This document shows, one piece after another, positions 7,056-48,135 of a DNA stretch of 49,563 nt (its first letter is position 1; each line of letters starts with the position of its first letter). Where the stretch lies: the NCBI GenBank assembly GCA_017433725.1, contig JAFRGQ010000059.1, positions 1 through 49,563 on the forward strand. Direction: 5' to 3'. This stretch comes from Lachnospiraceae bacterium. Its GTDB lineage: Bacteria; Bacillota; Clostridia; Lachnospirales; Lachnospiraceae. The translations under genes and the position numbers were made by a program. The notes beneath the pieces are model-generated. The model did no database searches, had not been told where the DNA came from, and worked only from the letters and a program-made list of their open reading frames with translations.

Positions 7056-7214
7056 ATGTTATCATTTCCGATTGATTTTTATTGTGAATATCATAAAGAA
7101 GATCCTGCTCCGGAATGGATGACAGGGGAGAGAATGAGCTTCTGTGAGCAGCCGGAAACAAGAGAGAACGGTGTCCTTGGCGGAATCATGGAGTTCCTCA
7201 GCAGACTGTTCTGA
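7056..7214 (+). CDS. Small hypothetical protein, 52 residues
   Basis: ATG at 7056 follows AGGGAGG (7041-7047) with good spacing and opens a 52-codon frame beginning MLSFPIDFYCEYHKEDPAPE and ending GGIMEFLSRLF. It is acidic, has Cys10 and Cys30, and ends in a short amphipathic helix. A strong terminator starts 16 nt after the stop, so the unit has its own ribosome binding site and end. No family was recognised. Divergent orientation from the PucR-type gene across a palindrome suggests it may be that regulator's target. Confidence 0.6.
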   Translation: MLSFPIDFYCEYHKEDPAPEWMTGERMSFCEQPETRENGVLGGIMEFLSRLF

Positions 7215-7230
7215 GAAACGGATAAGATAC

Positions 7231-7270
7231 GGGATGTGAAGATGAGAGATCATTTTCACATCCCTTTTTT
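7231..7270 (+). terminator. Intrinsic terminator of the small ORF
   Basis: GGGATGTGAA (7231-7240) pairs perfectly with TTCACATCCC (7255-7264), followed by TTTTTT. Confidence 0.85.
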
Positions 7271-7302
7271 CGTTATTTTCTTTAAGTGCATAGAAAAACA
7301 GA

Positions 7303-7331
7303 TTGACAAACCAGCCGACATAAATTAGAAT
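7303..7331 (+). promoter_or_regulatory. Sigma-A promoter of the T-box operon
   Basis: TTGACA at 7303-7308 and TAGAAT at 7326-7331 with a 17-nt spacer, directly upstream of the T-box leader. Confidence 0.8.
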
Positions 7332-7365
7332 CTTTCATTAGATGTGACAAAATATTAAATTTATA

Positions 7366-7640
7366 TAAATGCGATGAAGGCACTATGCAATTTGCCCACC
7401 ACCACAGAGATCCGACGGTTGGTGCGAGTCGGAGTGAGTACAATGCGCAGTCTCATGCCGGAGCAGATTTCCTGAAGGCGAACGCTGTGTAGGGAAATCC
7501 GGAAGGTCCCGTTATCAAGGCCAGGTACTTTATTGAGTACTACAGAGCGGTCGCTTGCGCGGCAATCTGGGTGGTACCGCGATTAATTGATTAGTCGTCC
7601 CAGAGGTTCATTATTGTTCGTGAGCCTCTGGGTTTTTTTT
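7366..7640 (+). promoter_or_regulatory. T-box riboswitch, probably leucine-specific
   Basis: The leader holds the conserved T-box sequence GGGTGGTACCGCG (about 7569-7581), which pairs with the uncharged tRNA acceptor end. It is followed by a terminator: CCCAGAGGTTCA (7599-7610) with TGAGCCTCTGGG (7621-7632), then eight T residues. Stem I spans about 7375-7460, with GGCA (7379-7382) closing on TGCC (7456-7459). The specifier loop then presents CTC at 7452-7454 followed by A, a leucine codon. The LeuA-like protein downstream supports leucine. The specifier assignment is by hand folding and is less certain than the T-box itself. Confidence 0.9.
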
Positions 7641-7758
7641 TCATTAGGAAAAAGTTACCGATTGGCCATACCGCTTCATAGCAAGAGATATGCGGCGTAA
7701 GTCGTGGCTGCAGGGCTTCCGGACAGGTACTTATCTATAGAAAGGAAAAAAGAGAATC

Positions 7759-9168
7759 ATGAGAACACTGAAATTCATCGACATGACCCTTAGACAGGCT
7801 GCAAATGCCCGCGGCAGAGAGCTCTCCTTCAAGGAGAAACTCGAGGTAGCGAGAAGCCTCGACCGATTGAAGGCAGATACGATCGAGCTCGCACCGATTT
7901 CTGACAGCAAGGCCGATCAGCTTGCCAATCGGACCATCGCTTCCATGGTGGTGACAAGAATCTCCGCGGCAGTCGATATTTCAGTCGGCAATATTGAGCA
8001 GACATGGGAAAGCGTTAAGCCGGCTAAGAAACCGAAGCTCAACATTATTGCACCGGTTTCGACCGTTCAGATGGAGTATATGTGCCATAAGAAAGCCGGC
8101 GCTATGCTTGAACTCATCACAGAATCCGTAAAGAAGGCCCGTTTCTACACGGAGTTCGTTGAATTCTCCGCTGAGGATGCGACCCGCGCAGAGCCGGAAT
8201 TCCTGTATAAGGCGCTTAACGCTGCTATCGATGCGGGTGCTTACAAGATCACGGTCTGCGATACTGCAGGCATAATGATGCCGGATGAATTCGGCACATT
8301 TGTCAGAGAAATCATGAAAAATGTTCCGGGTCTCGCAGATATCGAGCTTTATGTAGAAATCAGGGATACCATCAACATGGCGGTTGCCTGTGCCGCTCAG
8401 GCAGTCAGAGAAGGCGCAGTAGGCGTAAAATGCACCGCCCTGCCGAACGGCTATCCGACCATGGAGGAGCTTGCCGAGTTCGTGGCAGTCAAGGGTAATG
8501 ACCTCGATATCACTACGCAGGTCCGCGTGACGGAACTTCATCGCGCTGTAGGACAGCTGAAGAGAATCCTTGATCCGCAGGAAGACGATCAGTCCCGCTT
8601 TAATAATATCGGGCTTGAAGACATTGCAAATGTCTGCCTTGACAAAAACGATGATATCAGCGAGGTGACCAAGGTCGTTCGCCAGATGGGCTATGATCTC
8701 AGCGAGGAGGACAATGCCCGCGTATTCGAGTCTTTCCTCAGAGTTGCTGCCAAAAAGACATATGTAGGAACCAAAGAGCTGGATGCAATTATCGCAAGTA
8801 CCGCCATGCAGGTGCCGTCCACATATACATTGAAGACATATGTAATCAACAGCGGAAATGTTATCACCGCGACTGCAAATATTCTTCTCGTGAAGGACGG
8901 TGAAGAAATCCGTGGCGTAGGTATCGGCGACGGTCCGATCGATGCTTCTTTCCAGGCTATTGAGCAGATCATAGGACATCACTATGAACTCGATGATTTC
9001 CAGATCCAGACGGTAACGGAAGGCCGTGACGCCATGGGAAGCGCTCTTGTTAAGCTTCGCGCCGGCGGCCGCGTCTATTCAGGAAACGGCATTTCAACGG
9101 ATATTATCGGGGCTTCGATCCGGGCTTATATCAGTGCTTTGAACAAGATTGTTTATGAGGATGCATAA
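7759..9168 (+). CDS. LeuA/HMGL-like protein with degenerate active site
   Basis: This 469-residue protein has the architecture of 2-isopropylmalate synthase: an HMGL-like TIM barrel (residues about 1-270) and a C-terminal LeuA regulatory domain (about 350-466). The latter shows GVGIGDGPIDASFQAIEQI and the TDIIGASIRAYISALN end, the leucine-binding module. Parts of the barrel are conserved (VEFSAEDATRAE at 134-145, CDTAGIMMP from 167). The metal site is not: the LRDG motif reads LRQA (R12, Q13), HxH reads ExR (E200, R202), and the GERAGN region reads LPNGYPTM (228-235). Condensing activity is therefore doubtful; a leucine sensor or repurposed enzyme is possible. It is first in the T-box operon, with an AAAGGA site. 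Confidence 0.88.
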   Translation: MRTLKFIDMTLRQAANARGRELSFKEKLEVARSLDRLKADTIELAPISDSKADQLANRTIASMVVTRISAAVDISVGNIEQTWESVKPAKKPKLNIIAPVSTVQMEYMCHKKAGAMLELITESVKKARFYTEFVEFSAEDATRAEPEFLYKALNAAIDAGAYKITVCDTAGIMMPDEFGTFVREIMKNVPGLADIELYVEIRDTINMAVACAAQAVREGAVGVKCTALPNGYPTMEELAEFVAVKGNDLDITTQVRVTELHRAVGQLKRILDPQEDDQSRFNNIGLEDIANVCLDKNDDISEVTKVVRQMGYDLSEEDNARVFESFLRVAAKKTYVGTKELDAIIASTAMQVPSTYTLKTYVINSGNVITATANILLVKDGEEIRGVGIGDGPIDASFQAIEQIIGHHYELDDFQIQTVTEGRDAMGSALVKLRAGGRVYSGNGISTDIIGASIRAYISALNKIVYEDA

Positions 9169-9307
9169 TATCCGGGCTGATATTTCGACAAGGACTCATG
9201 CAGAGGCGGTTCTCAGTTTTCAGGAACCGTTCCTGCCGGATGACTGTCGGGATACTTTCGAGCAACGATGAGTGACAATGAGTGAAAAGTAAGAGGAGGT
9301 TTACGTC

Positions 9308-11806
9308 TTGAAACTGTCATTCTCTATCCAGAATTGGAATAATATGAGCTGGGATGAATTCTGCAGCGTTGCTGTTTACACGCGCATGCAGGGTATCGAG
9401 CTTTATGATATACACAGCCCTGTCTTCCGCGGAAAGGGCAGTCCTACGAACCCGGAGCGGGCGGCATCCGTAAGACGGCATCTGATTGCAGATCATCTTC
9501 AGCTGCCGTGTATCAACACCGTAAAGGACTTCACTTCTCCGGATTTCATCAGAGAGTTCACGGAATGTCTCACGGTAGCCGTGAATCTCGGCATAAGCTG
9601 CATCGGCATTCATACTTCGGAGAGCGATCCGGAAAAATGTGTGGAGCCGCTCGGCATTCTCCTTGATATAGTCGGAGAAAAACCGGTGACTGTTCTTGTC
9701 GAGACTGCGGATGCCTACGCGGATACGAGCCGTCTGCGCGATCTCCTGAATCGTTTCTCTGACGACAGGCTTGCAGCCCTCTGGGATATGCACACAACTG
9801 TGTTCGAGGGCGGAGAGAGTGCCGAAACGACGATCACAAATCTGGGTGCATATGTAAAACATGTACACATTCATGACTGTCGGCAAGAGGATGGAAAAAT
9901 CATTCCCGAACTGATCGGTGAAGGCCAGCTTCCTCTTCAGGATCTCATGGACGCCCTTCGCTCGGTCAACTACGACAGTTATGTATCGCTCGAGTGGGAT
10001 CCGAATTGGATGGAAGGACTTGAGGATATTGAGATCATTCTGACGCATTATGAGAACGGGATGCGTCCGTTTGAAAATACAAAGCGCGGCAAACGCCATC
10101 TCTACTGGAGCAACCGTCATGTAGGACGGTACGTCTGGAAGAAGGGCGACCTGATCGACAAGACGTTTCCGCAGGTTCTGGATACCATGGTCGAAGAGTT
10201 CCCGGATCAGACGGCAATCCGTTATACAACATTGGATTATACAAGAACATACAGCCAGTTCAGGGATGATGTCGATGAGTTTGCCCGCACGCTGGTATCC
10301 CTCGGCGTTAAAGCCGGTTCCAAGGTCACGATCTGGGCGACAAATGTTCCCCAGTGGTTTCTGACCTTCTGGGCAGCCACGAAGATCGGCGCTGTTCTTG
10401 TTACGATGAATACCGCTTACAAGATTCATGAAGCGGAGTATCTGCTTCGCCAGTCGGATACGCATACGCTGGTCATGATCGAAGGCTACAGAGATTCCGA
10501 TTATAACAGCATCATTAATGAGCTCTGCCCGGAGATTAAAGATAATAAGCCGGGTAAGCCGCTCCATACGAGACGTCTTCCGTTCCTTCGCAACGTCATT
10601 ACAGTCGGTTTCCGCATGCCCGGCGCTCTGACCTGGGAGGAATCCCTCGAGTATGCGTCACGCACCCCGATCGAAGAGATCAATCGCATGGCTGCGGCAG
10701 TCGATGTGAACGATGTCTGCAATATGCAGTATACGTCCGGAACGACTGGATTCCCGAAGGGTGTTATGCTGACACATTACAATATTGTTAATGACGGTAA
10801 GAGTATCGGCGACGGAATGGATCTGTCTACGGAAGATCGTATGATGATCCAGGTGCCGATGTTCCACTGCTTCGGCATGGTACTCGCTATGACTGCAACG
10901 ATGACCCACGGCGGCACGATTCTTCCGATTCCGTATTTCTCGCCGAAGTCGTCGCTTTCCTGCATACACAATGAGCATATCACTGCTTTCCACGGCGTGC
11001 CGACGATGTTCATTGCGATGCTGTCGCATCCGGATTTCGAGAAGACCAGTTTTGCACATATGAGGACCGGTATCATGGCAGGAAGTCCCTGCCCGATCGC
11101 TGTCATGCGGGATGTCGTCGAGAAGATGCATATGCCGGAAATTGTTATTGTTTACGGTCAGACCGAGGCTTCGCCGGGCTGCACGATGAGCCGCACTACG
11201 GATTCTCTGGAAGTCCGCGTCACGACCGTCGGAAGCGCTTTCCCGGAAGTCGAGTGCAAGATCGTGGATCCGGAGACCGGTGAGGATTGTCCGGACGAGG
11301 TCATCGGAGAGTTTGTAGCCCGCGGATATAATATTATGAAGGGTTACTACAAGATGCCGAAGGCAACAGCCTCTGCAATCGATAAGGACGGTTGGCTGCA
11401 TACAGGCGACCTTGCCTGCAGAACGAAGGAAGGCAATTACAGAATTACAGGCCGTCTGAAGGATATGATCATCCGCGGCGGTGAGAATATTTACCCGAAG
11501 GAGATCGAGGAATTCATTTATACACATCCGAAGGTAAGCGATGTTCAGGTCATCGGCGTTCCGGATCAGGCGATGGGCGAGGAGATCATGGCCTGCATCA
11601 TCCTCAAGGAGGGCGAGACCATGACGGTCGAGGAGATGAAGAAATTCGTACTTGACCACATGGCGAAGCACAAGGTGCCGAAGTACATCGATTTCGTGGA
11701 CGGATTCCCGATGAACGATGCGGGTAAGATCCAAAAGTATAAGATGCGTGAGCAGGCGATTGAGAAGCTCGGGCTGCAGAAGGCGGCGAGTATTGTAACG
11801 GCTTAA
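9308..11806 (+). CDS. TIM-barrel isomerase-like domain fused to acyl-CoA synthetase
   Basis: This 832-residue two-domain protein starts at TTG 9308 after AGAGGAGG. Residues 1-255 form a xylose-isomerase/AP-endonuclease-2-type barrel with a plausible metal site kept: Glu132 (VLVETAD), Asp160 (WDMHT), His186/His188 (VHIHD) and Glu229 (SLEWDP). Residues about 280-825 are an AMP-forming ligase with the P-loop YTSGTTGFPKG (475-485), YGQTEASPG, GWLHTGDL, the hinge GRLKDMIIRGGENIYPKEIE and the C-terminal catalytic Lys in NDAGKIQKYKMRE. It most resembles fatty- or short-chain acyl-CoA synthetases (FadD/AcsF type). The combination is unusual. It is 139 nt downstream of the LeuA-like gene, with no terminator between, so it is likely in the T-box operon. 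The substrate is unknown. Confidence 0.9.
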   Translation: MKLSFSIQNWNNMSWDEFCSVAVYTRMQGIELYDIHSPVFRGKGSPTNPERAASVRRHLIADHLQLPCINTVKDFTSPDFIREFTECLTVAVNLGISCIGIHTSESDPEKCVEPLGILLDIVGEKPVTVLVETADAYADTSRLRDLLNRFSDDRLAALWDMHTTVFEGGESAETTITNLGAYVKHVHIHDCRQEDGKIIPELIGEGQLPLQDLMDALRSVNYDSYVSLEWDPNWMEGLEDIEIILTHYENGMRPFENTKRGKRHLYWSNRHVGRYVWKKGDLIDKTFPQVLDTMVEEFPDQTAIRYTTLDYTRTYSQFRDDVDEFARTLVSLGVKAGSKVTIWATNVPQWFLTFWAATKIGAVLVTMNTAYKIHEAEYLLRQSDTHTLVMIEGYRDSDYNSIINELCPEIKDNKPGKPLHTRRLPFLRNVITVGFRMPGALTWEESLEYASRTPIEEINRMAAAVDVNDVCNMQYTSGTTGFPKGVMLTHYNIVNDGKSIGDGMDLSTEDRMMIQVPMFHCFGMVLAMTATMTHGGTILPIPYFSPKSSLSCIHNEHITAFHGVPTMFIAMLSHPDFEKTSFAHMRTGIMAGSPCPIAVMRDVVEKMHMPEIVIVYGQTEASPGCTMSRTTDSLEVRVTTVGSAFPEVECKIVDPETGEDCPDEVIGEFVARGYNIMKGYYKMPKATASAIDKDGWLHTGDLACRTKEGNYRITGRLKDMIIRGGENIYPKEIEEFIYTHPKVSDVQVIGVPDQAMGEEIMACIILKEGETMTVEEMKKFVLDHMAKHKVPKYIDFVDGFPMNDAGKIQKYKMREQAIEKLGLQKAASIVTA

Positions 11807-11826
11807 GTACATGTAAGAAAGCTGAC

Positions 11827-11865
11827 TTACCGAAGCAGACGGGAAAAACCGTTATGCTTCGGTAA
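11827..11865 (+). promoter_or_regulatory. Hairpin between ligase fusion and PFOR genes
   Basis: TTACCGAAGCA (11827-11837) pairs perfectly with TGCTTCGGTAA (11855-11865), with an inner ACGG/CCGT. No U-tract follows, so it may be an mRNA processing or stability element rather than a terminator. Confidence 0.55.
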
Positions 11866-11900
11866 ATCTGACATAAGAGAGAAACTCGGAGGAAAACATT

Positions 11901-14900
11901 ATGAGTGACAGACAGAAGCAATATGTGACGGTGGACGGTAATGAAGCCGCCGCTTATATTGCATATGCATTCACTGAAATAGCGGCTATTTATCCAATTA
12001 CACCTTCCTCGCCGATGGCGGGAAAAACAGACGTCTGGTCTGCCAACGGAAAGAAGAACATCTTCGGTCAGCGCGTCCGCCTCGTTGAGATGCAGGCGGA
12101 ATCCGGCGCGATCGCAGCCGTTCACGGTGCACTTGAGACCGGAGCTCTGGCGACAAGTTTTACTTCTTCGCAGGGACTTATGCTGATGATCCCGACCATG
12201 CACCGCATTGCCGGTGAGCGTCTCCCGGGCGTACTTCATGTGGCCAGCCGTACGGTCGGCTCCCACGCGCTCTCTATATTCGGAGATCATTCGGATGTAT
12301 ATAACTGCCGTCAGACGGGATTTGCCCTTCTTGCGAGCGGCGATGTTCAGGAGGTCATGGACCTTGCAGGCGTGGCACATCTTTCGGCAATCAAGGGGCT
12401 TGTACCGTTCATTCATTTCTTTGACGGTTTCCGCACATCTCATGAGCTGGACAAAGTCGAGCAGATGAACTACGCGGATCTGGCGGACCTTGTTGACTAT
12501 GAGGCTCTGGACGCATGGCGTGCACAGGCGCTCAATCCGGAACATCCGATGATCCGCGCGACTGTTCAGAATCCGGATATTTTCTTCCAGATGAGAGAAG
12601 CCAACAACAATGATTATTCAGCATTGCCGGATATCGTAGAAGGATATCTCGGAAAGATCAGCGAGATTACAGGCAGAGAGTACCACATCTTCAATTATTA
12701 CGGAGCGCCGGATGCAGAACGTGTCATTATCGCGATGGGATCCGTTTCCGGATGCATCAAGGAGACGGTCGACTTTCTGAACGCGCGCGGCGAGAAAGTC
12801 GGTTTTGTACAGGTCCATCTGTATCGGCCGTTCGATATCAGCCGTTTCGTTGCTGCGATACCTGCTACATGCAAGTCGATTGCTGTTCTGGACCGCACAA
12901 AAGAGATGGGAAGCGCCGGCGAGCCTCTGTATCAGGATGTCTGTACAGCGCTTCGCGGACGCAGCGACCTCGTTGTGGTCGGCGGCCGTTACGGTCTGTC
13001 CTCCAAGGATACCACGCCGTCCCAGATCGCAGCCGTCTTTGCGAACCTGCTTGAGGAGAAGCCGGTCAACAGTTTTACGATCGGTATTAATGACGACGTG
13101 ACACATCTGTCTCTGAAGGAAAAGGAAGTCCTGAATCTTGAGGAAGACGGACTTGTCAGCTGCAAATTCTGGGGTCTCGGCTCTGACGGTACCGTCGGCG
13201 CCAACAAGAATACGGTCGAGATCATCAATTCGCATACAGACAAATTCGCACAGGCTTATTTCGAATATGACGCAAAGAAATCGTTCGGCGTAACGAAGAG
13301 CCATCTCCGTTTCGGCGACAGACCGATCCGTTCGTCCTATTACGTAAAATCCGCAGACTTCATTGCCTGCCACAACCCGACATATATCGAGAAGTACGAC
13401 ATCGCATCGGAAGTCAAGCCGGGCGGTACGCTCCTCATCAACTGCCCGTGGGATACGGCAGAGCTTGATAAGCATATTCCCGCAAATGCAAAGCGAGAAA
13501 TCGCAAATAAGGGCATTCAGCTGTACACGATCGACGCCACGAAGATTGCACGCGATCTCGGACTCGGCGGCCACTTTAACATGGTCCTTCAGTCCGCTTT
13601 CTTCAACCTCATGCCGGTCATTCCGGTCGAGGATTCTGTCCGCTACATGAAGGCGGCAGCGGAGAAGACATATTTCGCAAAAGGAGAGGACGTCGTAAAA
13701 CGTAATCTGGCGGCTATAGACGCGGGGTGCAGTGCATTTGTCCACATCGATGTTCCGGATTCATGGAAGGATGCCGAGGATGCTCCGAAGAAAGAGAGAA
13801 ATGTACCGGCTGTCGTCACGGAAATCCTTGAGCCGATCAACGCCCAGAAGGGTGATGACCTGTCGGTCAGCCAGCTGGCAAGATATAAGGACGGCGTCAT
13901 GGACATGGGTCTTACAGCCTATGAAAAACGCGGAATCGCTGTCCGCGTACCGGTATGGAATCCGGAAACATGTATCCAGTGCAACAGATGCGCTTATGTC
14001 TGCCCGCATGCGGTCGTCCGCCCGTATCTTATGACGGAGGAGGAGAAGAGCGCAATGCCGGAAGGCATGAAGATCGCACCGGCAAAAGGTAAGCAGGTCG
14101 CAGGCATGTACTTTACGATGCAGGTGAGCGAGCTCGACTGCACGGGCTGCGGCAGCTGCGCAAATGTCTGCCCGGCTAAAGGCAAAGCACTCACCATGGT
14201 CCCGGCTTCCGAGGCCGCTGATACATCCGCTGCATGGGAGTACGCGCTGAATCTGCCCGAAAAGAAAGATATCTTCGATCCGTATTCGGTCAAGGGAAGC
14301 CAGTTCCGCAGACCGCTCGTCGAGTTCTCGGCAGCATGCGCCGGTTGCGGCGAGACGCCGTACGCAAAGCTTCTCACTCAGCTTTACGGAGATCGTGTTT
14401 ACTGGGCAAATGCGACCGGCTGCTCTCAGGCGTGGGGTTCCGCGATGCCGGGTATCCCGTATACTGTAAATCAGAAGGGCCGCGGACCTGCATGGTCCAA
14501 TTCCCTGTTTGAAAATAACGCTGAGTTCTCTCTCGGCATGGTGCTGTCGGTCAATCAGCAGCGTCTGCATGAGAAAGACAGAGTGGAAGAATATCGTAGT
14601 GTCTGCACAGACAGTGCAGCCTGCGAGGCGATGGATGAGTGGATTGCGACGTTTGAAGATTTCGAGAAGTCGCTCGAGACCAGCGAAAAGCTGATAGAGG
14701 CTCTCTCAAAGTTGGACGATGAAGAAGCAAAGGCAATTCTTCGCTATAAGGACCAGCTTGTCAAGAAGACTTTCTGGATGTACGGCGGCGACGGCTGGGC
14801 GTATGATATCGGATTCGGCGGTCTGGATCACGTAATCGCCAGCGGCGAGAACGTCAACGTCCTGATCGTGGATACGGAGGTCTATTCCAACACAGGCGGT

Positions 14901-15392
14901 CAGTCTTCCAAGGCTACTCCGGTCGGTGCGGTCGCACAGTTCGCGGCATCCGGCAAGAAGCAGCCGAAGAAGGATCTCGGCAGTATGCTCATGACATACG
15001 GCAAGGTCTATGTTGCACAGGTGGCTATGGGAGCGGATTACAATCAGCTGATCAAGGCGGTCCGCGAAGCGCAGGACTATGACGGTCCGAGTGTTATCAT
15101 CGCTTACGCGCCGTGCCAGGAGCATGGACTTCGCTGCGGAACGGATAGAGTGCAGGATGAGATGAAGAAGGCGGTAGACGCCGGCTATTGGTTCCTGTAC
15201 CGGTTCAACCCGGAAACCGAGCCGAAGTTCCACCTTGACTCGAAGGAGCCTTCCATCGATTATGAGGAGTTCCTGAACGGAGAGGTGAGGTACGCATCGC
15301 TGAGACGTACGTTCCCGGAGAATGCAAAAGCGCTGTTCGAGGAGGGGGCTAAGCTCGCGAAGGAGAGGTACGAGAAGTACAGAAATATGTAA
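11901..15392 (+). CDS. nifJ: Pyruvate:ferredoxin (flavodoxin) oxidoreductase
   Basis: This single-chain 1163-residue enzyme is of normal length. It oxidatively decarboxylates a 2-oxoacid, normally pyruvate, to acyl-CoA and CO2 while reducing ferredoxin, or runs in reverse. Domain order: alpha N-terminal part with YPITPSSPMA (33-42), the gamma domain (about 415-630), and two 4Fe-4S motifs, CIQCNRCAYVCP (from about 691) and CTGCGSCANVCP (from about 746). The thiamine-diphosphate domain has CAGCGETPYAKL (about 812) and the GDGWAYDIGFGGLDHV metal motif. All cofactor motifs are intact. GGAGG precedes the ATG. It lies 94 nt after the ligase fusion with no terminator, so it may be co-transcribed, although PFOR genes often have their own promoter. 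Confidence 0.95.
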   Translation: MSDRQKQYVTVDGNEAAAYIAYAFTEIAAIYPITPSSPMAGKTDVWSANGKKNIFGQRVRLVEMQAESGAIAAVHGALETGALATSFTSSQGLMLMIPTMHRIAGERLPGVLHVASRTVGSHALSIFGDHSDVYNCRQTGFALLASGDVQEVMDLAGVAHLSAIKGLVPFIHFFDGFRTSHELDKVEQMNYADLADLVDYEALDAWRAQALNPEHPMIRATVQNPDIFFQMREANNNDYSALPDIVEGYLGKISEITGREYHIFNYYGAPDAERVIIAMGSVSGCIKETVDFLNARGEKVGFVQVHLYRPFDISRFVAAIPATCKSIAVLDRTKEMGSAGEPLYQDVCTALRGRSDLVVVGGRYGLSSKDTTPSQIAAVFANLLEEKPVNSFTIGINDDVTHLSLKEKEVLNLEEDGLVSCKFWGLGSDGTVGANKNTVEIINSHTDKFAQAYFEYDAKKSFGVTKSHLRFGDRPIRSSYYVKSADFIACHNPTYIEKYDIASEVKPGGTLLINCPWDTAELDKHIPANAKREIANKGIQLYTIDATKIARDLGLGGHFNMVLQSAFFNLMPVIPVEDSVRYMKAAAEKTYFAKGEDVVKRNLAAIDAGCSAFVHIDVPDSWKDAEDAPKKERNVPAVVTEILEPINAQKGDDLSVSQLARYKDGVMDMGLTAYEKRGIAVRVPVWNPETCIQCNRCAYVCPHAVVRPYLMTEEEKSAMPEGMKIAPAKGKQVAGMYFTMQVSELDCTGCGSCANVCPAKGKALTMVPASEAADTSAAWEYALNLPEKKDIFDPYSVKGSQFRRPLVEFSAACAGCGETPYAKLLTQLYGDRVYWANATGCSQAWGSAMPGIPYTVNQKGRGPAWSNSLFENNAEFSLGMVLSVNQQRLHEKDRVEEYRSVCTDSAACEAMDEWIATFEDFEKSLETSEKLIEALSKLDDEEAKAILRYKDQLVKKTFWMYGGDGWAYDIGFGGLDHVIASGENVNVLIVDTEVYSNTGGQSSKATPVGAVAQFAASGKKQPKKDLGSMLMTYGKVYVAQVAMGADYNQLIKAVREAQDYDGPSVIIAYAPCQEHGLRCGTDRVQDEMKKAVDAGYWFLYRFNPETEPKFHLDSKEPSIDYEEFLNGEVRYASLRRTFPENAKALFEEGAKLAKERYEKYRNM

Positions 15393-15410
15393 AGCTGTTT
15401 ACAACATATA

Positions 15411-15460
15411 AAAGAGCACCGGCGGGACGATTACGATTTGTTTCGCCGGTGCTCTTTCTA
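15411..15460. terminator. Bidirectional terminator between PFOR and phosphatase genes
   Basis: AAAGAGCACCGGCG (15411-15424) pairs perfectly with CGCCGGTGCTCTTT (15444-15457). T-rich sequence follows on both strands, suiting the two convergent genes. Confidence 0.85.
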
Positions 15461-16231
15461 TCACTCAAGATATAGATCTCTGATTTTTGCGATATCTTCA
15501 GCGGACAGGTCATATTCCGTCCTGAAGAAATCCTCGTAACTCGGGTATTTCTTCTGAATGGTAGTTAAAGCATATGCGGCGAATGATCTGCACACGCCCT
15601 CCTTGACCCACAGAAAAGTCCGGAGATTCTTGCTGAGTCTGGACAGAATCCTGAACTTGGACATCTGTTCCCTGATCAGTGACTTTCTGTATTTATTCGT
15701 CAGTTCGAAATCATCAAGGATCGTCTCCTCGTCGACGCCGAGCAGGAGAAGAATGAGCATTGCCGCGATTCCTGTACGGTCCTTGCCCTGCGTGCAGTGA
15801 AAGAGCATGGGTACACGTTCCCTGAGAATGAGTTGGAACATCTTATAATAGGCGTCATTGTCAAATGCAACGTGAGCGTAAAGATGCTTCCCGAAGCTCT
15901 CCATTTTGTTAAGACCCGGTTCTTTCATGGCCATGAGTACCATCTTGCGTGAAGAATAGTCGATCTCATTTATATCGTTGTCATTCATGGCGGTGTAATG
16001 GTAGTTGGTGGCTCCGTCGATGGGAGGATCCGGGAACGTGATATGCTCAATGGTACTGCGCAGATCAACAATGCTTTTTAATCCTAATCGCCCGACGGCT
16101 GCCAGCTCGCGTTCATCCATGAATGCAAGCGCGCCGCTGCGGTAGAACATTCCTTTTTTGACGGTGCGTCCGTCTTTCGTCTTATAGCCTCCGAGTTCGC
16201 GGAAATTGTGCTCGTGTTTGAAACCTGCCAT
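15461..16231 (-). CDS. Tyrosine/dual-specificity protein phosphatase
   Basis: This 256-residue protein is of the Y_phosphatase3 type. The N-terminus has the family signature NFRELGGYKTKDGRTVKKG and FYRSGAL, followed by IVDLRS. The catalytic P-loop is HCTQGKDRTG, with nucleophile Cys146 and Arg152. There is no signal peptide, so it is cytoplasmic. Relatives dephosphorylate phosphotyrosine and sometimes phosphoinositides. It is monocistronic and converges on the PFOR gene, sharing a terminator hairpin. Its substrate in this organism is unknown; the Ser/Thr kinases encoded at the right of the window are not obvious partners. Confidence 0.9.
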   Translation of the reverse strand: MAGFKHEHNFRELGGYKTKDGRTVKKGMFYRSGALAFMDERELAAVGRLGLKSIVDLRSTIEHITFPDPPIDGATNYHYTAMNDNDINEIDYSSRKMVLMAMKEPGLNKMESFGKHLYAHVAFDNDAYYKMFQLILRERVPMLFHCTQGKDRTGIAAMLILLLLGVDEETILDDFELTNKYRKSLIREQMSKFRILSRLSKNLRTFLWVKEGVCRSFAAYALTTIQKKYPSYEDFFRTEYDLSAEDIAKIRDLYLE

Positions 16232-30749: not shown

Positions 30750-30779
30750 TTGCACGAATCATATGAATAGTGGTAAAAT
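30750..30779 (+). promoter_or_regulatory. Candidate promoter of buk-pta
   Basis: TTGCAC (30750-30755) and TAAAAT (30774-30779) with an 18-nt spacer, 78 nt before the buk start. Confidence 0.5.
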
Positions 30780-30856
30780 CAGAAATTATTATTCTTCATA
30801 GAGTAAAGACCTCCGGCAGGAAGGCCTTAAATTTGAAGTTTAACGAGGGAGAGAAT

Positions 30857-31972
30857 ATGTCTGACGATAAAAAGAAACTGCTTATAATCAATCCGGGCTC
30901 GACATCGACGAAGGTCAGCCTTTTTCTGGATGAGGAGTGTCTGTTCGAAAAGAACCTGTTCCACGACGCGCCTGAGCTTCTGAAATATAAACATGTGAAC
31001 GACCAACTGCCGTTCAGATGCGGTGTCATTCTGAACATGCTTGCGGAGGAAAATGTAGATCCGTATGAGATCGACGCTTTTGTGGGACGCGGAGGCAGCG
31101 CCTGCACGCAGCCGGGCGGACTTACGAAAATAGATCAAAAACTGTTCGACGATACAGTGGCGGCTGTCGGCGGTTCCGAGCATCCGGCTAAGCTGGGTGT
31201 CATGATTGCATGGACATTTGCACAGAAATACGGGAAAGAAGCTTTTACACTCAATCCTACAAATGTCGATGAGTATTGCGACTATGCGAGACTTACGGGA
31301 ATCAAGGGTATTTATCGTGTTTCACACTCACACGTACTGAACCAGAAAGCGGTGGCTGCGTACCATGCGGGCAAGCTCGGAAAGAAGTATGAAGATTGTA
31401 ATTTTATCGTCGCACACATCGATGGCGGCATCACTGTAAGCGCACATGACCACGGCCGCATGGTCGACGGAAATATGGGCGCGGACGGCGAGGGTGCATT
31501 TACGCCCACGAGAATCGGCTCTCTGCCGGTACTTCAGCTGCTGGATTATCTGGAAACACACTCTATAGATGAGGTGAGACTGGCATGCGCGAGATCCGGC
31601 GGATTTGTACAGTATTTCGGAACATCCAACTCAGATACGATCCATGAGCTTGTCGATCGCGGAGATAAGAAAGCTGTACTTATCTGGAATACGATGATTT
31701 ATCAGATCTGCAAGATGATCGGGGAGATGAGTGCAGTGCTTTGCGGGAAGGTGGACGGAATTCTTCTGACCGGAGGTCTGATGCGTTTTCAGGATATTGG
31801 GGAGACGATTGAGAAGCGATGCGGATTTATTGCGCCGATCAGCGTGTATCCCGGTGAGATGGAACAGGAGGCGTTGGCTCTTCCGACATTGGAGGCGCTC
31901 AGAGGAGAGCGCATTGCGATGAAGTACTCCGGTCATAATGTATGGGATGGATTTGACTTCCTGAATGAATAG
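30857..31972 (+). CDS. buk: Butyrate kinase
   Basis: This is a 371-residue protein when started at ATG 30857 (GAGGGAGAG site); the frame runs up to 30770 but that extension has no support. It belongs to the acetate/butyrate kinase (ASKHA) family: LLIINPGSTSTKVSLF at the N-terminus, FVGRGGSACTQPGGL, FTLNPTNVDEYCDYARLTGI, AHIDGGITVSAHDHGRMVDGN and LLTGGLMRF. It interconverts acyl phosphate and acid while forming ATP. The specificity is for butyrate or branched short-chain acids by family similarity. The next gene overlaps or abuts and encodes a phosphotransacetylase. Confidence 0.92.
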   Translation: MSDDKKKLLIINPGSTSTKVSLFLDEECLFEKNLFHDAPELLKYKHVNDQLPFRCGVILNMLAEENVDPYEIDAFVGRGGSACTQPGGLTKIDQKLFDDTVAAVGGSEHPAKLGVMIAWTFAQKYGKEAFTLNPTNVDEYCDYARLTGIKGIYRVSHSHVLNQKAVAAYHAGKLGKKYEDCNFIVAHIDGGITVSAHDHGRMVDGNMGADGEGAFTPTRIGSLPVLQLLDYLETHSIDEVRLACARSGGFVQYFGTSNSDTIHELVDRGDKKAVLIWNTMIYQICKMIGEMSAVLCGKVDGILLTGGLMRFQDIGETIEKRCGFIAPISVYPGEMEQEALALPTLEALRGERIAMKYSGHNVWDGFDFLNE

Positions 31973-31985
31973 TGAGGTATGGGCC

Positions 31986-32981
31986 ATGAGCATGATAGAA
32001 AGGGTAAAAGAAAAGGCAAGAGCTGACAGAAAGACCATCGTGTTCCCGGAGGGGATTGAGGAGAGAACAATTCAGGCAGCGGCGGAACTGGTCAAAGAGA
32101 AACTCGTCGACCCTGTTCTTCTCGGAAAACCGGAAGAAATCAGGGGCGAAGCTAAGAGGCTCGGCGTCGATCTGACAGGTATCCGAATTGAGGATCCCGC
32201 GGATAGTGATAGATTCCGGACATATGCGGACAGTCTCTATGAACTCAGGAAAGCAAAGGGTGTGACGCCTGAGAAAGCGGAAGAACTGACACTGGATCCG
32301 ATGTATTATGGCATCATGATGGTGAAAATGGGAGATGCGGACGGTCTGGTTTCAGGAGCTGTCCACACTACGGGAGATATGTTAAGACCTGCCTTGCAGA
32401 TTATCAGGACTAAGCCGGGTATGAAGATCGTCTCTTCAAGCTTCCTCATGGACTGCCCGGATAAAAGTCTCGGTGAGGATGGTCTTCTGGTCTATGCAGA
32501 CTGCGTTGTCATGCCCAGCCCAACGGAAGAGGAACTTGCTTACATCGCTGTGGCGGCAGCGGATACTGCCCGCACACTTTGCGGCATCGAAGAACCGCGT
32601 GTAGCGATGCTGTCATTCTCAACAAAGGGAAGTGCAAAGCATGAGTCTGTTTCCAAGATGCAGCGGGCGGTTGAGATAGCACATAAAATCGCTCCGGACC
32701 TTCTTCTGGATGGCGAGATGCAGTTCGACGCGGCTCTGGTACCGGAGATCGGGGCAAGTAAAGCCAAGGGAAGTCCGGTCGCGGGACGTGCCAACGTCCT
32801 TATATTCCCGGACCTGCAGGCCGGCAATATCGGTTATAAGATCACACAGAGAATCGGCGGAGCAGAATGCTTTGCCGTGTTACAGGGACTGCAGAAACCG
32901 TGTAACGATCTGTCCCGTGGCTGCAGCGTTGAAGATATCGTAAATACGGCAGCCATGACGGCAGTTCAGGCACAGTCATAA
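31986..32981 (+). CDS. pta: Phosphate acetyltransferase
   Basis: This is a 331-residue protein when started at ATG 31986, after GTGAGG; an earlier in-frame ATG at 31965 lies within the end of buk. Motifs are those of Pta: TIVFPEGIEERTIQAA, GLVSGAVHTTGDMLRPALQI, MLSFSTKGSAKHES and the C-terminal block GYKITQRIGGAECFAVLQGL with NDLSRGCSVEDIV. It interconverts acetyl-CoA and acetyl phosphate. It is coupled to butyrate kinase rather than acetate kinase, so it might act on longer acyl-CoA, or the kinase on acetate. A strong terminator follows. Confidence 0.9.
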   Translation: MSMIERVKEKARADRKTIVFPEGIEERTIQAAAELVKEKLVDPVLLGKPEEIRGEAKRLGVDLTGIRIEDPADSDRFRTYADSLYELRKAKGVTPEKAEELTLDPMYYGIMMVKMGDADGLVSGAVHTTGDMLRPALQIIRTKPGMKIVSSSFLMDCPDKSLGEDGLLVYADCVVMPSPTEEELAYIAVAAADTARTLCGIEEPRVAMLSFSTKGSAKHESVSKMQRAVEIAHKIAPDLLLDGEMQFDAALVPEIGASKAKGSPVAGRANVLIFPDLQAGNIGYKITQRIGGAECFAVLQGLQKPCNDLSRGCSVEDIVNTAAMTAVQAQS

Positions 32982-43392: not shown

Positions 43393-43599
43393 TGTTGGAG
43401 TTGAAGTCCGCTTGCGGAATTTGTCCCATAATCTGAGAAAATACTGAAAACCTGTTGCATATACGTAAGAGGAAAGCTTATAATCAATAATCAGATTATC
43501 GATAAAGTCATTATCGAATGTTATCCGGCCATAATTATTGTAAATTGTATAAATTGCCGGATTAGTAGGATATAATATTAATTGAAGGAGGTATGTAAA

Positions 43600-44223
43600 A
43601 TGTCTGTTCCTGATAAAAGTATAGATCCCCGACTGCTGTCCGCAGCGATGGAAGAGTTTTTAGAAATGGGGTATGAAAAAGCTTCTCTGAAAAACATCTG
43701 CAGTAAAGCGGGTGTCACAACAGGTGCGCTATATAAACGATATAAGGGCAAGGAAGATCTGTTCGGCGCTCTCGTAACAGATCTGATTAGAGATATGGAA
43801 AAGTATATGACCTCTATACCGGATGAGGTATTAAAGAGCTTCACCGACCGGGAGCTTTATGAATCCCTGTCTATGCCGACGGAAATGGTCATAGCATGGT
43901 TTCAGCTTCTGTATGAGCAAAAAGATGCGTTCACGCTTCTGGTAAAATGTTCAGCGGGGACAAAATATGCCAACTTCAATCAGGAGTGGGCAGGAAGAAT
44001 GAATGAAATCGACTATATGAACTATCTTGAAGCCAGAAAGCGCGGGATGACTGACAAAATCGTGACAGAGGAAGAAATGTACTGCCTGACAAGTGCTATC
44101 TGGGTAATGTTCTTGGCGCCGTTCATTCGTAATTTCACATGGGAGCAGATCGTCGAGCACGCTCAGTATCTTCATGATTTTTTAAACTTGCGCAAAGCGC
44201 TTGGAATTAAGGAACCCGATTGA
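43600..44223 (+). CDS. TetR/AcrR-family regulator
   Basis: This is a 207-residue protein when started at ATG 43600, because AAGGAGG (43585-43591) lies just upstream; the frame reaches TTG 43582. The N-terminal TetR helix-turn-helix (about 10-57) reads MEEFLEMGYEKASLKNICSKAGVTTGALYKRYKGKEDLF. The C-terminal ligand domain has no recognisable subclass. The next gene starts 39 nt later on the same strand, so this may be the first gene of the kinase operon and could control it. Confidence 0.92.
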   Translation: MSVPDKSIDPRLLSAAMEEFLEMGYEKASLKNICSKAGVTTGALYKRYKGKEDLFGALVTDLIRDMEKYMTSIPDEVLKSFTDRELYESLSMPTEMVIAWFQLLYEQKDAFTLLVKCSAGTKYANFNQEWAGRMNEIDYMNYLEARKRGMTDKIVTEEEMYCLTSAIWVMFLAPFIRNFTWEQIVEHAQYLHDFLNLRKALGIKEPD

Positions 44224-44261
44224 TAGAGCCCGATGACCCGGAAAAGAAAGGAAACAACGGC

Positions 44262-44696
44262 ATGACAGAAAGAGTTTCAACACAGGAATTATGGGGAAAG
44301 CTTTTCAAGGCCAATGCGGTGGAGGACTATCTGGATGCCGCAGGCGATTGTCAGTTACCGGAGTTTTCTGAGTATATCAAGGCGCTTTGTTCAGAAAAAG
44401 GGGAAAATGCAGAGAACGTGATAAGGCGCGGAAATATTGAATCATCATACGGGCACAGACTCTTTAAAGGAACTCGAAAACCCTCGCGGGATACCGTGCT
44501 GAAATTGGCTTTCGGTCTTGAAATGGATTCGGATGGAGCGCAGCAATTGCTTAAGGTCGCCAGAGTCACTGCACTTCATCCTCGTGTCAAGAGAGACGCA
44601 GTGATAGCATATTGCCTGTATCATCACAAGAGTTTTACAGAGGTGCAGCAGCTTCTTTACGACAACAATCTGCCCACGATAGGTGAAAAAACGTAA
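44262..44696 (+). CDS. HTH protein coupled to the Ser/Thr kinase gene
   Basis: This is a 144-residue protein when started at ATG 44262 behind AAAGGAAAC. Residues about 38-95 look like an XRE-type helix-turn-helix (VIRRGNIESSYGHRLFKGTR, KPSRDTVLKLAFGLEM). A helical C-terminal segment follows, HPRVKRDAVIAYCLYHHKSF. Its stop TAA overlaps the kinase ATG by one base (TAATG at 44694-44698), so the two are translationally coupled. It may be the kinase's substrate or DNA-binding output (inference). Confidence 0.75.
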   Translation: MTERVSTQELWGKLFKANAVEDYLDAAGDCQLPEFSEYIKALCSEKGENAENVIRRGNIESSYGHRLFKGTRKPSRDTVLKLAFGLEMDSDGAQQLLKVARVTALHPRVKRDAVIAYCLYHHKSFTEVQQLLYDNNLPTIGEKT

Positions 44697-46060
44697 TGAA
44701 GAATGATGATATTCTAAATGAAATTTTGGAATCATACAGCGATACCGAATATCCGGAAGAGTTTTCTTCGGAGTTTGATATCATGGAGTGTTTATCCGAA
44801 CAAAACGGAATATGTACCTTTCTTGTGCAAGACCATAAAAGTGCCGAGTACATAGCGAAATGTTTTGATAAGACGTTATGGAAAAATCTCACTGGTAATG
44901 ATATCCTGACGAATCTTTCTCATAAAGGACTTCCGGGGTATTTTGGTACCTATGAGAACGATTCCATGACGATTACCGTACGTGAATATGTGGAAGGGGA
45001 TTCTCTGGACCGGTATGCCGCCGAGCATAATCTTTCACAGGAGGAAATAGTTAATATCTGCATACAGCTTTGCGATATTCTTGCTTATCTGCATCACAGA
45101 GAGCCGCCTGTAATTCATCGCGATATAAAACCGCAGAACATCATTATCAGACCGGATGGAAGTGTAGTTCTGATTGACTTTGATATTGCGCGTTTACACA
45201 AGCAGGAAAATGATACAGACACAGTATTTTTCGGAACACGTTCCTACGCACCGCCGGAGCAGTATGGGTTTTCACAGACGGATGAACGAACGGATATCTA
45301 TTCTATGGGAATTCTGCTCAGATGGCTGCTCACGGGTAGTACAAGAGAGAACAGCAACATCAAGGTATATCCTCCGCTTGCAAAGATTATTAAGAAATGC
45401 ACCGGATTTTCCCCAAAAGACCGTTTTTCCGATGTGGATCAGGTCAGGAAAGCACTCATGAGGGCAAACCCGCGCTCGCAGAGAATTCGTATGAGTTTTC
45501 TTGCAATCTGTATGGCGGCTGCTGTGGGTATTCTTGTCTTTGGAGGAATAAGGATTTATCGGTATGTCACATATACACCCTTTACGGATGGAGCAATTCC
45601 GGCGTATATGACCGACGAGGAAAGAGTGCAAGATGCGGTCAGTTACTTGAAAAACAAGTATGGTACGGACATCTTTGATAATGATACCGACATAGCTCAT
45701 GTGGGAGACCTGCGCAGGGCGATGATCGAACTCTATGGACTCGACAGAGATTATGTTTACGGAATCAACACGGATATGCCTCAGGAGAATGATGCGTACT
45801 TCCTGCCCTGGGGATGGGAAGATGAACAGAATATAGACAGGGATCCGGTGATCTATGCGGCTGTTAAAGCGCATGATGCATCCATAGTTGCTGACTGGTC
45901 AAGTCTAAAGGATGACAATGGGTTTTATCCGGGGGTGAGAGTTGCGGTAGCATTTGCCGAAAAGCATGGCATTACGGAAGGTGCCAACAAACCGTTAGAT
46001 CTTACACTTGGGGATATGGCGCTTATTCTGGCAAATACGGATCGAGTATTTGAAAAATGA
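44696..46060 (+). CDS. Membrane Ser/Thr protein kinase with extracytoplasmic domain
   Basis: This 454-residue protein has a cytoplasmic Hanks-type kinase domain (about 25-255) with likely ATP-binding Lys55, catalytic HRDIKPQN (141-148) and the Mg motif DFD (161-163) where DFG is usual. GTRSYAPPEQ lies in the activation segment. The glycine-rich loop is poorly conserved. One membrane helix follows (about 267-286) and then a 165-residue C-terminal domain that should lie outside the cell, with DEERVQDAVSYLKNKYGTDIF. No PASTA repeats are present. The start is fused to the upstream stop (TAATG). A terminator follows at 46125. Confidence 0.9.
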   Translation: MKNDDILNEILESYSDTEYPEEFSSEFDIMECLSEQNGICTFLVQDHKSAEYIAKCFDKTLWKNLTGNDILTNLSHKGLPGYFGTYENDSMTITVREYVEGDSLDRYAAEHNLSQEEIVNICIQLCDILAYLHHREPPVIHRDIKPQNIIIRPDGSVVLIDFDIARLHKQENDTDTVFFGTRSYAPPEQYGFSQTDERTDIYSMGILLRWLLTGSTRENSNIKVYPPLAKIIKKCTGFSPKDRFSDVDQVRKALMRANPRSQRIRMSFLAICMAAAVGILVFGGIRIYRYVTYTPFTDGAIPAYMTDEERVQDAVSYLKNKYGTDIFDNDTDIAHVGDLRRAMIELYGLDRDYVYGINTDMPQENDAYFLPWGWEDEQNIDRDPVIYAAVKAHDASIVADWSSLKDDNGFYPGVRVAVAFAEKHGITEGANKPLDLTLGDMALILANTDRVFEK

Positions 46061-46124
46061 TTTGCGCGTTCTCGTGAATTCAGATTCGCGCGATGACGAA
46101 TAGAAATAAATATCAGAAATATGC

Positions 46125-46154
46125 AGAGGTGGTCTGGCAGACCACCTCTTTTTG
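46125..46154 (+). terminator. Intrinsic terminator after the membrane kinase
   Basis: AGAGGTGGTCTG (46125-46136) pairs with CAGACCACCTCT (46138-46149), followed by TTTTTG. It separates the kinase operon from the FHA-kinase gene. Confidence 0.9.
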
Positions 46155-46270
46155 TTGTGTTTTTGATACGATTATCTGAGAAGAAATATGACTGACTGAT
46201 ATAAAAAGTCGGGGATAGTATACCGAATTTGGAAGATGTCAGCTAACGCCGACCCGAATCCCGCGCCAAG

Positions 46271-46300
46271 GCTCGCGAGCGGGACTTGAACGAATGATGA
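46271..46300 (+). repeat. Shared leader element, copies at 46271 and 48940
   Basis: CTCGCGAGCGGGACTTGAAC (46272-46291) recurs as CTCGCGAGCGAGATTTGAAC at 48941-48960. Both are followed by a purine-rich segment with ATGA. They lie 17-37 nt before the ribosome binding sites of the FHA-kinase gene and the Clp-N-like gene, so a shared leader or operator is possible. Confidence 0.55.
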
Positions 46301-46316
46301 TACTTAGGAGGGTGAA

Positions 46317-48095
46317 ATGAAAGAAAAAATAATTATCGAGATAATAAAAGGCGAAGGTGCGGGACAGAAGTATGAATATGAAGACGCGGAGCGGGTTTTT
46401 GTGGGACGTCAGTCTGACTGCGGGATCGTGCTTCCCGAAAAAACAGTGTCAAGATATCACTGCCTGCTTGATATCAACCCTCCTACGGTAAAACTTCAGG
46501 ATTTCGGAAGCTTGAACGGCACCTTTCTGAATGATATTAAGATCGGTCAGAGAGAAAGGGATAAATCATGGGAAGAAGCCAGCCGTGATGCGCATAAAGA
46601 GTATGAACTGCATGACGGAGACGTGATTGGGATCGGCAAGAAGTGCAAATTGAAATGTACCGTCGAAGAGCCGGATATCATGGCTATTTCAGGTGCCTGG
46701 GACGGAACTATGCCTGACGGAGTGGAGGATGAAGAGAATCCGGCAGTATATGACGGAATTGGCTTCATGGGGAATGAGGCTGCGGCAGAAGAACCGGAAG
46801 CTGTACCGGAAGGAACGATAGAAACGGCGGAAAAAGGACGGTCGGAAGCAGCAGATTGGTCGAAAGCAGCGGAGAAAACATCGGAAAAAGGACAGTCGGA
46901 AGCAGCGGCTTGGTCTGAAGCAACGGAGAAAGCATCGGAAAAAGGACAGTCGGAAGCAGCAGTTTGGACTGAAGAATCGGTGGAGAAGACCGGAAAAGAA
47001 CAGAGAGTAGATTCGGAAGCAGAATCTGAAAAAGTGCCGGAAGAAGAGCCGAAAGAAGAGCCGGAACAGAAGGATCAAAAGCATGACGAAGAGATGGATA
47101 AGATTCTGGGAGAGCTCCTGATAGCAATACTCGGAGGAAAGCAGGAGCGACCTGTCGGTCCTTCGCCCGTGGAAGGCTTCGATAAGATAGCGCTTCTCGG
47201 TAAAGGCGGGATGGGAGAAGTATGGAAAGTGAGGGAGAACAAGACCGGAAAGCTCTATGCGCTGAAGACCATGCTGCCTCAGATTGCCGGTGACAAAAAA
47301 GCAAGAGACATGTTCCTCAGGGAAGCAAAGCTCACAGAGTTTTTGGATCATGAAAATGTTGTCCGCACCTATAAGACGGGATTTTCCAACAATGTCTACT
47401 ATATTCTGATGGATATATGCGAAGGCGGGAGCGTCGATGATCTGATGAAACGACATGGCGGAAAGCTTCCTATCAATCTTGCAACATTCATTATTCTTCA
47501 GGCTTTGGAAGGACTGGAATATGTTCACAATGTTCCGGTGCAGGCTGAGATCGTCAAAAGAGGGCTCTTTGGCGGACGCAGGGAAAAGCTTATGGATGCG
47601 AAGGGTCTGGTACACCGGGATTTTAAGCCGGGTAATATTTTCCTTATGGATAAGAGTGATCATCCTGTCGCGAAGGTAGCGGATTTCGGCATGGCAAAGG
47701 CTTTCCAGGCAGCCGGGTTCACCACTATGAGTTCGGAAGGAATGGTCAAAGGTACAGTCCCGTTCATGCCCCGCCAGCAGGCTCTTGATTGCCGTTTTGC
47801 GAAACCCGAGGTCGATGTTTGGGCTGCTGCTGCCAGCTATTACTATATGCTTACAGGTCAATTCCCGAAGAACTTCAGACAGGGAGTAAACATGTGGCAG
47901 ATTCTTGTCACGGAGAGCGCTACGCCTATCAGGCAGAGGGATTCTTCCGTACCGGAAAGGCTTGCGCAGGTGATTGACAGGGCACTTGTTGAGAGACCGG
48001 TGATCGGCTGCAATTCAGCAGCAGCCCTTCGTTATGACATTATAAGAGCACTGCCGGAAGGAAGCCGGAACTATTGTATGGATATAATTGATTGA
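46317..48095 (+). CDS. FHA-domain Ser/Thr protein kinase
   Basis: This 592-residue soluble protein starts behind AGGAGGG. The N-terminal FHA domain (about 25-105) has VGRQSDCGIVLPEKTVSRYH and LQDFGSLNGTFLND, the phosphothreonine-binding residues. An acidic, Ala/Glu/Lys-rich linker (about 140-265) includes three 18-residue repeats. The kinase domain (about 285-575) has LGKGGMGEVWKV, YALK, HRDFKPGN near 433 and DFGMAK near 456. About 25 extra residues (VPVQAEIVKRGLFGGRREKL...) are inserted before HRD. The FHA domain could bind the autophosphorylated kinase or a partner. It has a PP2C gene directly downstream. Confidence 0.92.
   Translation: MKEKIIIEIIKGEGAGQKYEYEDAERVFVGRQSDCGIVLPEKTVSRYHCLLDINPPTVKLQDFGSLNGTFLNDIKIGQRERDKSWEEASRDAHKEYELHDGDVIGIGKKCKLKCTVEEPDIMAISGAWDGTMPDGVEDEENPAVYDGIGFMGNEAAAEEPEAVPEGTIETAEKGRSEAADWSKAAEKTSEKGQSEAAAWSEATEKASEKGQSEAAVWTEESVEKTGKEQRVDSEAESEKVPEEEPKEEPEQKDQKHDEEMDKILGELLIAILGGKQERPVGPSPVEGFDKIALLGKGGMGEVWKVRENKTGKLYALKTMLPQIAGDKKARDMFLREAKLTEFLDHENVVRTYKTGFSNNVYYILMDICEGGSVDDLMKRHGGKLPINLATFIILQALEGLEYVHNVPVQAEIVKRGLFGGRREKLMDAKGLVHRDFKPGNIFLMDKSDHPVAKVADFGMAKAFQAAGFTTMSSEGMVKGTVPFMPRQQALDCRFAKPEVDVWAAAASYYYMLTGQFPKNFRQGVNMWQILVTESATPIRQRDSSVPERLAQVIDRALVERPVIGCNSAAALRYDIIRALPEGSRNYCMDIID
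46830..46991 (+). repeat. Three tandem 54-nt repeats in the FHA-kinase linker
   Basis: Units begin at 46830, 46884 and 46938 and encode EKGxSEAAxWSxxxEKxS. The third diverges in its second half. Confidence 0.85.
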
Positions 48096-48135
48096 TACTA
48101 CGGTTTAGTGATTTGAATGAATATGCAGGGATGAT

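Follow-up and report, generated by a model that had tools for sequence, protein, structure and literature searches.

What use a bacterium could have for a 2-isopropylmalate synthase (LeuA) stripped of the residues that hold its metal is the question raised by a gene, here called pLeuA, in a 49,563-nucleotide stretch of DNA from a Lachnospiraceae bacterium (G000; assembly 76.8% complete). This whole stretch is referred to as the window. The gene occupies positions 7759-9168 of the + strand and encodes, in an intact frame, 469 amino acids. Pfam recognizes an HMGL-like barrel (residues 4-261, E 5.5e-36, over the cut-off) followed by the LeuA_dimer domain (PF08502, residues 338-464; 107.3 bits against a cut-off of 24.9, E 6.8e-31). 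Among NCBIfam models the bacterial LeuA ones score closest to pLeuA, and all LeuA models remain far under their cut-offs (best 302 bits, cut-off 532). An earlier note on this DNA had described a LeuA-like protein with its catalytic metal site gone and its regulatory domain kept, and had suggested a leucine sensor, a scaffold, or a new enzyme. Our answer is that some gut bacteria, mostly without the usual leucine genes, probably keep a disabled LeuA as a leucine sensor. As to its setting, we give roughly even chances to a leucine T-box operon that constitutes a replacement route to leucine from isovalerate, in which the dead LeuA is the regulatory subunit that senses leucine.

Relatives were present in 554 stretches, of which 80 were kept; nine more, from eight same-family genomes (two from G175), bring the loci examined to 89, and most of them come from metagenome-assembled genomes. 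The closest named relative in the scan, the metagenome-assembled Lachnospiraceae genome RUG12161, encodes a protein 99% identical to pLeuA; we take the RUG prefix to denote rumen genomes, and other records are titled as rumen or gut samples from goats, sheep, and deer. The 80 kept loci share 61-99% identity with the window and their frames are open, while whole-gene dN/dS of 0.055 to 0.092 in four of six pairs, with dS near saturation and not computable in the other two, indicates purifying selection. The earlier statements that the gene is intact and not simply decaying are therefore sustained. The alignment comprises the window and 87 further sequences, excluding two partial ones (L063 and L095) and two true LeuA (L096 and L097); within these 88, L094 is partial, L087 repeats L037, L061 and L062 belong to one genome, and L006 is 99% identical to the window. 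With the two true LeuA, both from the same taxonomic family, as reference for the ligand positions, the metal-binding Asp, first His, second His, and Asn are retained in 0, 1, 0, and 0 of the 88 pLeuA, and the loss noticed in one sequence is borne out across the clade. All 88 have a gap where the GERxGN loop has G-E-R, and, judged by the same alignment, the deletion of GIHQDG from the catalytic linker (SGIHQDG in LeuA) is likewise clade-wide (88/88), a feature that the earlier note had not described. The letters it had read in the window (LRQA, ExR, and LPNGYPTM) are correct, and the question it posed, whether the Q/E/R substitutions are conserved among homologues, receives a negative answer: E stands at the Asp position in 48 sequences and Q in 27, 62 sequences have Q at the first His position and 79 have S at the second, and the window's E-x-R is a minority form of the usual Q-x-S, its R occurring in 3 of 88. 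What the clade has in common, as far as alignment can tell, is the loss of the ligands without any fixed new motif. Relocation of the ligands within pLeuA was considered and rejected, since the structure model shows an ordinary barrel and no invariant or nearly invariant His is found in the barrel among 41 sequences.

The catalytic site has gone, and the regulatory domain is the best-conserved part of the protein. Mean identity is 77.5% in the regulatory domain and 54.8% in the barrel of pLeuA, a pattern reversed in true LeuA (41.7% versus 68.5%, n=11). Within LeuA_dimer, the GDGP motif (residues 390-393), T420, and G422 are invariant in 41 pLeuA sequences and align with the leucine site and capping loop of Mycobacterium tuberculosis LeuA, whose residue positions were counted by eye from a printed alignment and whose roles we take partly from general knowledge. 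The window's regulatory domain alone, used as a query, yielded no solved relative (two matches only, E 0.4-0.5), and M. tuberculosis LeuA was found with a mixed alignment of ten rows, four pLeuA and six others, of which one (L102) contributes only the end of the domain and a fused HTH and another (L107) lacks the start of the domain. A structure model of pLeuA (mean pLDDT 86) finds its best fold matches in LeuA-type structures, leucine-bound 3FIG among them; the large rmsd (11-14) against full-length LeuA structures compares whole chains, and a different mutual orientation of the domains would account for it.

It is doubtful that pLeuA is instead an active enzyme of new, metal-free chemistry, one that would handle, for example, an acyl-CoA or a 2-oxo acid in the old active site under inhibition by leucine. 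The barrel's remaining identity, its invariant residues (D140 and K224 among them in 41 sequences), and the retention of Arg12 in 71 and Thr169 in 70 of 88 sequences speak for such an activity; the latter two are presumably the LeuA keto-acid positions, and their persistence makes ligand binding or other chemistry possible. However, the residues at the former metal positions vary among members (E, Q, A, L; Q, E, S), unlike those of a new catalytic site, the GIHQDG linker is deleted, and the barrel is under less constraint than the regulatory domain. Of the three roles first suggested, the comparative evidence thus favours the leucine sensor, the sensing domain being the best-conserved part, with a scaffold or new chemistry still in play.

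The leader of the gene points to leucine as well. A promoter-like site, TTGACA-17-TAGAAT, at 7303-7331 (+) matches the consensus at 11 of 12 positions and is the best of 13 in 7100-15700, where shuffles yield 8.0 (sd 3.4), and it thus counts as a consensus match only. The T-box announced by the earlier note is real (RF00230, 7365-7605, +; 113.7 bits, E 1.7e-24), and its specifier, CUC (leucine), was read from the covariance model alignment (CAG-U-CUC-A) in a register that we assume from the known glyQS leader. The T-box has an intrinsic terminator (7599-7632, +; 13-pair stem and T run), which shares CCC with the 3' side of the antiterminator, and the region 7480-7640 folds at z -3.99. From 7759 to 15392 on the + strand, a consensus scan found one weak terminator-like site, 9671-9687, within the next gene. 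The T-box core motif lies within 330 nt upstream of pLeuA in 66 of the 82 loci with at least 450 nt upstream and is absent in the other 16, and CUC stands in register in 64 of the 66, relatives at 41-48% identity among them. In the remaining two, L030 and L082, the specifier has changed or the leader is rearranged. Eight of ten submitted loci pass the Rfam threshold as T-boxes (L014 and L030 do not).

Behind pLeuA lies a gene (9308-11806, +; 832 aa) that joins a xylose-isomerase-like TIM barrel (residues 29-231) to an AMP-forming acyl-CoA ligase (residues 294-807; Pfam PF01261, PF00501, and PF13193). Downstream sequence of at least 600 nt is available in 84 of the 89 loci examined, and in every one of these the fusion is the next gene, starting within 600 nt; estimated gaps reach down to -4 nt, with overlaps of 4 or 1 nt in nine loci. 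The ligase part hardly varies: across 60 sequences, 255 of its 552 columns are at least 97% conserved. Its TIM barrel (window 9308-10132) drifts, and this includes what we take to be the metal ligands of the xylose-isomerase-like fold, E132 (50/60), D160 (35/60), H162 (31/60), and E229 (22/60). The ligase may therefore carry a second non-catalytic barrel, which on these conservation patterns may offer an attractive docking site for pLeuA. A protein of about 270 aa, amidohydrolase-like by eye, often stands between the ligase gene and the one that follows (cluster 4, 17 loci).

That third gene (11901-15392, +) encodes an operon-specific paralogue of the NifJ/PFOR-type 2-oxoacid:ferredoxin oxidoreductases (TIGR02176, 1728 bits, cut-off 911). 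At an identity threshold of 59%, set by the analyst, it is found downstream in 39 of the 45 loci with at least 4500 nt on that side and is missing in six. A tree was built from 41 PFORs, many of which are truncated where their loci end. It groups 22 operon copies and a copy from G115 (C39, a contig that starts with the end of the ligase gene) in one clade with FastTree support of 1.0, separate from 18 other PFORs of carriers and controls; the nearest branch is the second PFOR of the window's own genome. Thirteen positions are fixed differently (at least 90%) between the operon clade and the others, several of them beside the ANATGCS motif. Four of ten same-family carriers (G075, G092, G096, and G120) have one full PFOR only, outside the operon clade, so that another enzyme would have to carboxylate there; all four contain a POR_N frame (355-358 aa), and that of G096 exceeds the VorB cut-off and lies near an MbcS-like acyl-CoA synthetase.

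The context also includes what the carriers lack. Among 200 same-family genomes, pLeuA occurs in ten, from ten genera, and a LeuA_dimer protein other than pLeuA (either true LeuA or something related, for instance citramalate synthase) is found in one of these (G175) versus 182 of 190 non-carriers (Fisher p 2e-10). A second LeuA-type protein was detected in 8 of 53 carrier entries (52 genomes, G081 and G218 being the same), and that of G229 is pLeuA again. LeuB exceeds its cut-off in 1 of 24 carriers picked from the 53 entries versus 28 of 30 non-carriers picked for high completeness (p 6e-12); this and the other gene-loss counts and p values are raw with respect to common ancestry and to gaps in the assemblies. 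LeuB-like frames that score 245-267 bits, short of the cut-off (353), are present in five carriers. IlvC is over its cut-off in 11 of the 24, and hence the operon might act on other branched acids, or part of the carriers might be auxotrophic. These claims of absence rest on many genomes rather than on the window's own incomplete one, and they include Lachnospiraceae bacterium FE2018 (JNKK01000004; L037, with identical coordinates in G081), a carrier that is 95% complete and not labelled as metagenome-assembled, in which IlvC is present and neither a second LeuA nor LeuB is over the cut-off. Matches to PF00330 occur in 47 of 53 carrier entries, mostly in frames of aconitase size, and several carriers without a second LeuA have PF00330 frames of 420-450 aa. 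No LeuC-sized PF00330 frame was found in the nine same-family carriers that lack a second LeuA, except for some odd proteins of the window's own genome. These lie on contig C8 (L116:7159-14736), where, behind the second PFOR, genes for a short aconitase-like protein and a LeuD-LeuC-like fusion precede one that resembles phosphate butyryltransferase (under cut-off). Given that the fusion is over broad aconitase-family cut-offs and under that of the LEU2 equivalog (407 versus 610 bits), LeuCD-like chemistry may be within reach of this genome. Its other HMGL proteins are two subunits of carboxylase/decarboxylase type over the cut-off and a NifV-like synthase under it (144 versus 463 bits). In the window itself, a butyrate kinase gene overlaps that for phosphate acetyltransferase (30770-32981, both over cut-off), and TetR-like, HTH, Ser/Thr kinase, FHA-kinase, and PP2C-like genes, recognized by reading the translations by eye, follow one another at 43582-48900.

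A leucine T-box thus precedes genes for a ligase and a 2-oxoacid synthase, mostly in genomes that lack LeuA and LeuB, and a ligase and an oxidoreductase induced by leucine starvation in such organisms would match the needs of a route that carboxylates isovalerate. It is the ligase and PFOR genes, the leucine specifier, and the missing LeuA and LeuB that turn the general guess of the earlier note into a specific hypothesis. The three genes would be transcribed together, switched on through the T-box when charged leucine tRNA is lacking. The ligase would activate isovalerate to isovaleryl-CoA, the PFOR paralogue would combine isovaleryl-CoA with CO2 and reduced ferredoxin to 2-oxoisocaproate, and an aminotransferase encoded elsewhere would complete leucine. 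Such a route would be expected to need a feedback sensor, and given that the most constrained part of its first gene is a leucine-sensing domain, pLeuA is proposed as the regulatory subunit: a former isopropylmalate synthase that would have lost catalysis and retained its leucine-binding dimer domain, most likely docking on the TIM-barrel/ligase protein and shutting the ligase when leucine is plentiful. Observed are the order of the genes, the T-box codon for leucine, the vanished catalytic site, the inverted conservation, the separate PFOR clade, and, in most of the carriers tested, the lack of LeuB and of another LeuA-type protein; the joint transcription of the genes, the acid used by the ligase, the binding of leucine, and the contact with the ligase and its sign are inferred. 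That the operon is the genetic basis of the isovalerate-to-leucine pathway of the rumen, with the dead LeuA as feedback docked on the ligase's degenerate TIM barrel, is a fuller claim, and we put its chances somewhat below even. The isovalerate route in rumen bacteria reportedly goes back to Allison and co-workers (1962, 1966), the 1962 study being said to have found isovalerate incorporated into leucine by rumen ruminococci.

Whether leucine is the product or merely the signal deserves consideration, although it seems improbable that the operon makes something else or works on another acid (isobutyrate, 2-methylbutyrate, or an aromatic acid). The best NCBIfam match of the ligase is a generic fatty-acid ligase model under its cut-off (691 versus 832), the PFOR too may take another substrate, and IlvC is under its cut-off in 13 of 24 carriers, so that valine and isoleucine may need such a route too. 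Nevertheless, the T-box specifier is a leucine codon almost without exception, the losses include the leucine-specific LeuB, and in G096 and the window's own genome other acids could be served by a separate VorB that stands next to an MbcS-like ligase (under cut-off). Two further readings are unlikely. An ordinary isopropylmalate synthase, with its ligands elsewhere or functionally replaced, would agree with the matches to both HMGL-like and LeuA_dimer and with the LeuA-type fold, but it has very little chance of being correct given the clade-wide loss of ligands and linker and the NCBIfam scores, and in the 23 of 24 carriers with LeuB under its cut-off isopropylmalate would lead nowhere. That pLeuA is a decaying leuA carried along by its operon, for which the lost catalytic site might speak, is hardly credible in view of the open and conserved frames, the low dN/dS, and the unfailing presence of the ligase gene behind it.

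The proposed isovalerate route with pLeuA as its sensor invites comparison with known systems. HisZ is a catalytically dead HisRS-like regulatory subunit of HisG; by analogy, pLeuA could be another dead enzyme paralogue kept as a subunit that responds to an amino acid and controls a neighbouring enzyme, although HisZ differs in fold and pathway, pLeuA is no member of its family, and the pLeuA complex is a proposal. From LeuA itself, with which it shares domain order, barrel fold, and the LeuA_dimer domain, pLeuA differs in lacking the metal ligands and the GIHQDG linker, in length (469 aa versus 505 and 520 aa in two LeuA compared), and in being followed by the ligase fusion in place of leuBCD. 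Some of the same genomes also have VOR and MbcS-like acyl-CoA synthetase genes, which resemble the operon in placing a ligase beside a 2-oxoacid:ferredoxin oxidoreductase (two clusters) and differ in that both enzymes are of other families and no pLeuA stands alongside; four such stretches contained no T-box over the Rfam threshold. On contig C46 of the window's own genome (L166:5003-9465), VorB (over cut-off) and a beta-type subunit adjoin a 773-aa HTH-cupin-acyl-CoA synthetase fusion, MbcS-like by a score under the cut-off, and together they may convert branched acids to keto acids by a second route. Leucine sensing appears in yet another form in a same-family genome, where a true LeuA (L102:1159-3147; G144, C3) carries an AraC-type DNA-binding domain behind LeuA_dimer (HTH_18, E 1.3e-18). 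This architecture suggests that leucine sensing is coupled to transcription in LeuA-AraC-type fusions, and many LeuA_dimer frames of 660-690 aa may be the same fusion.

Branched acids are growth factors for rumen ruminococci. Isovalerate carboxylation to leucine is reported from the rumen (PMC7356843), and isoacids serve as feed additives for ruminants (PMC12272956). A proteome study of 2020 still says of the back-conversion of branched fatty acids into branched amino acids that it 'was not proven yet', naming a ferredoxin oxidoreductase as its theoretical enzyme (PMC7709123). A literature search in which most subscription papers were out of reach found no paper assigning genes to the isovalerate carboxylation route, and none on the pLeuA operon or on a dead LeuA as sensor. 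The operon resembles the rumen pathway in predicted chemistry, habitat, and end product, and is a candidate for its genes. In giving named candidate genes for the isovalerate-to-leucine route, it may represent the long-sought basis of the conversion of fatty acid to leucine. More broadly, a sensor of a lost pathway would have been retained and rewired to police the replacement pathway, and, if true, this would clearly exemplify a feedback sensor that has survived its parent enzyme.
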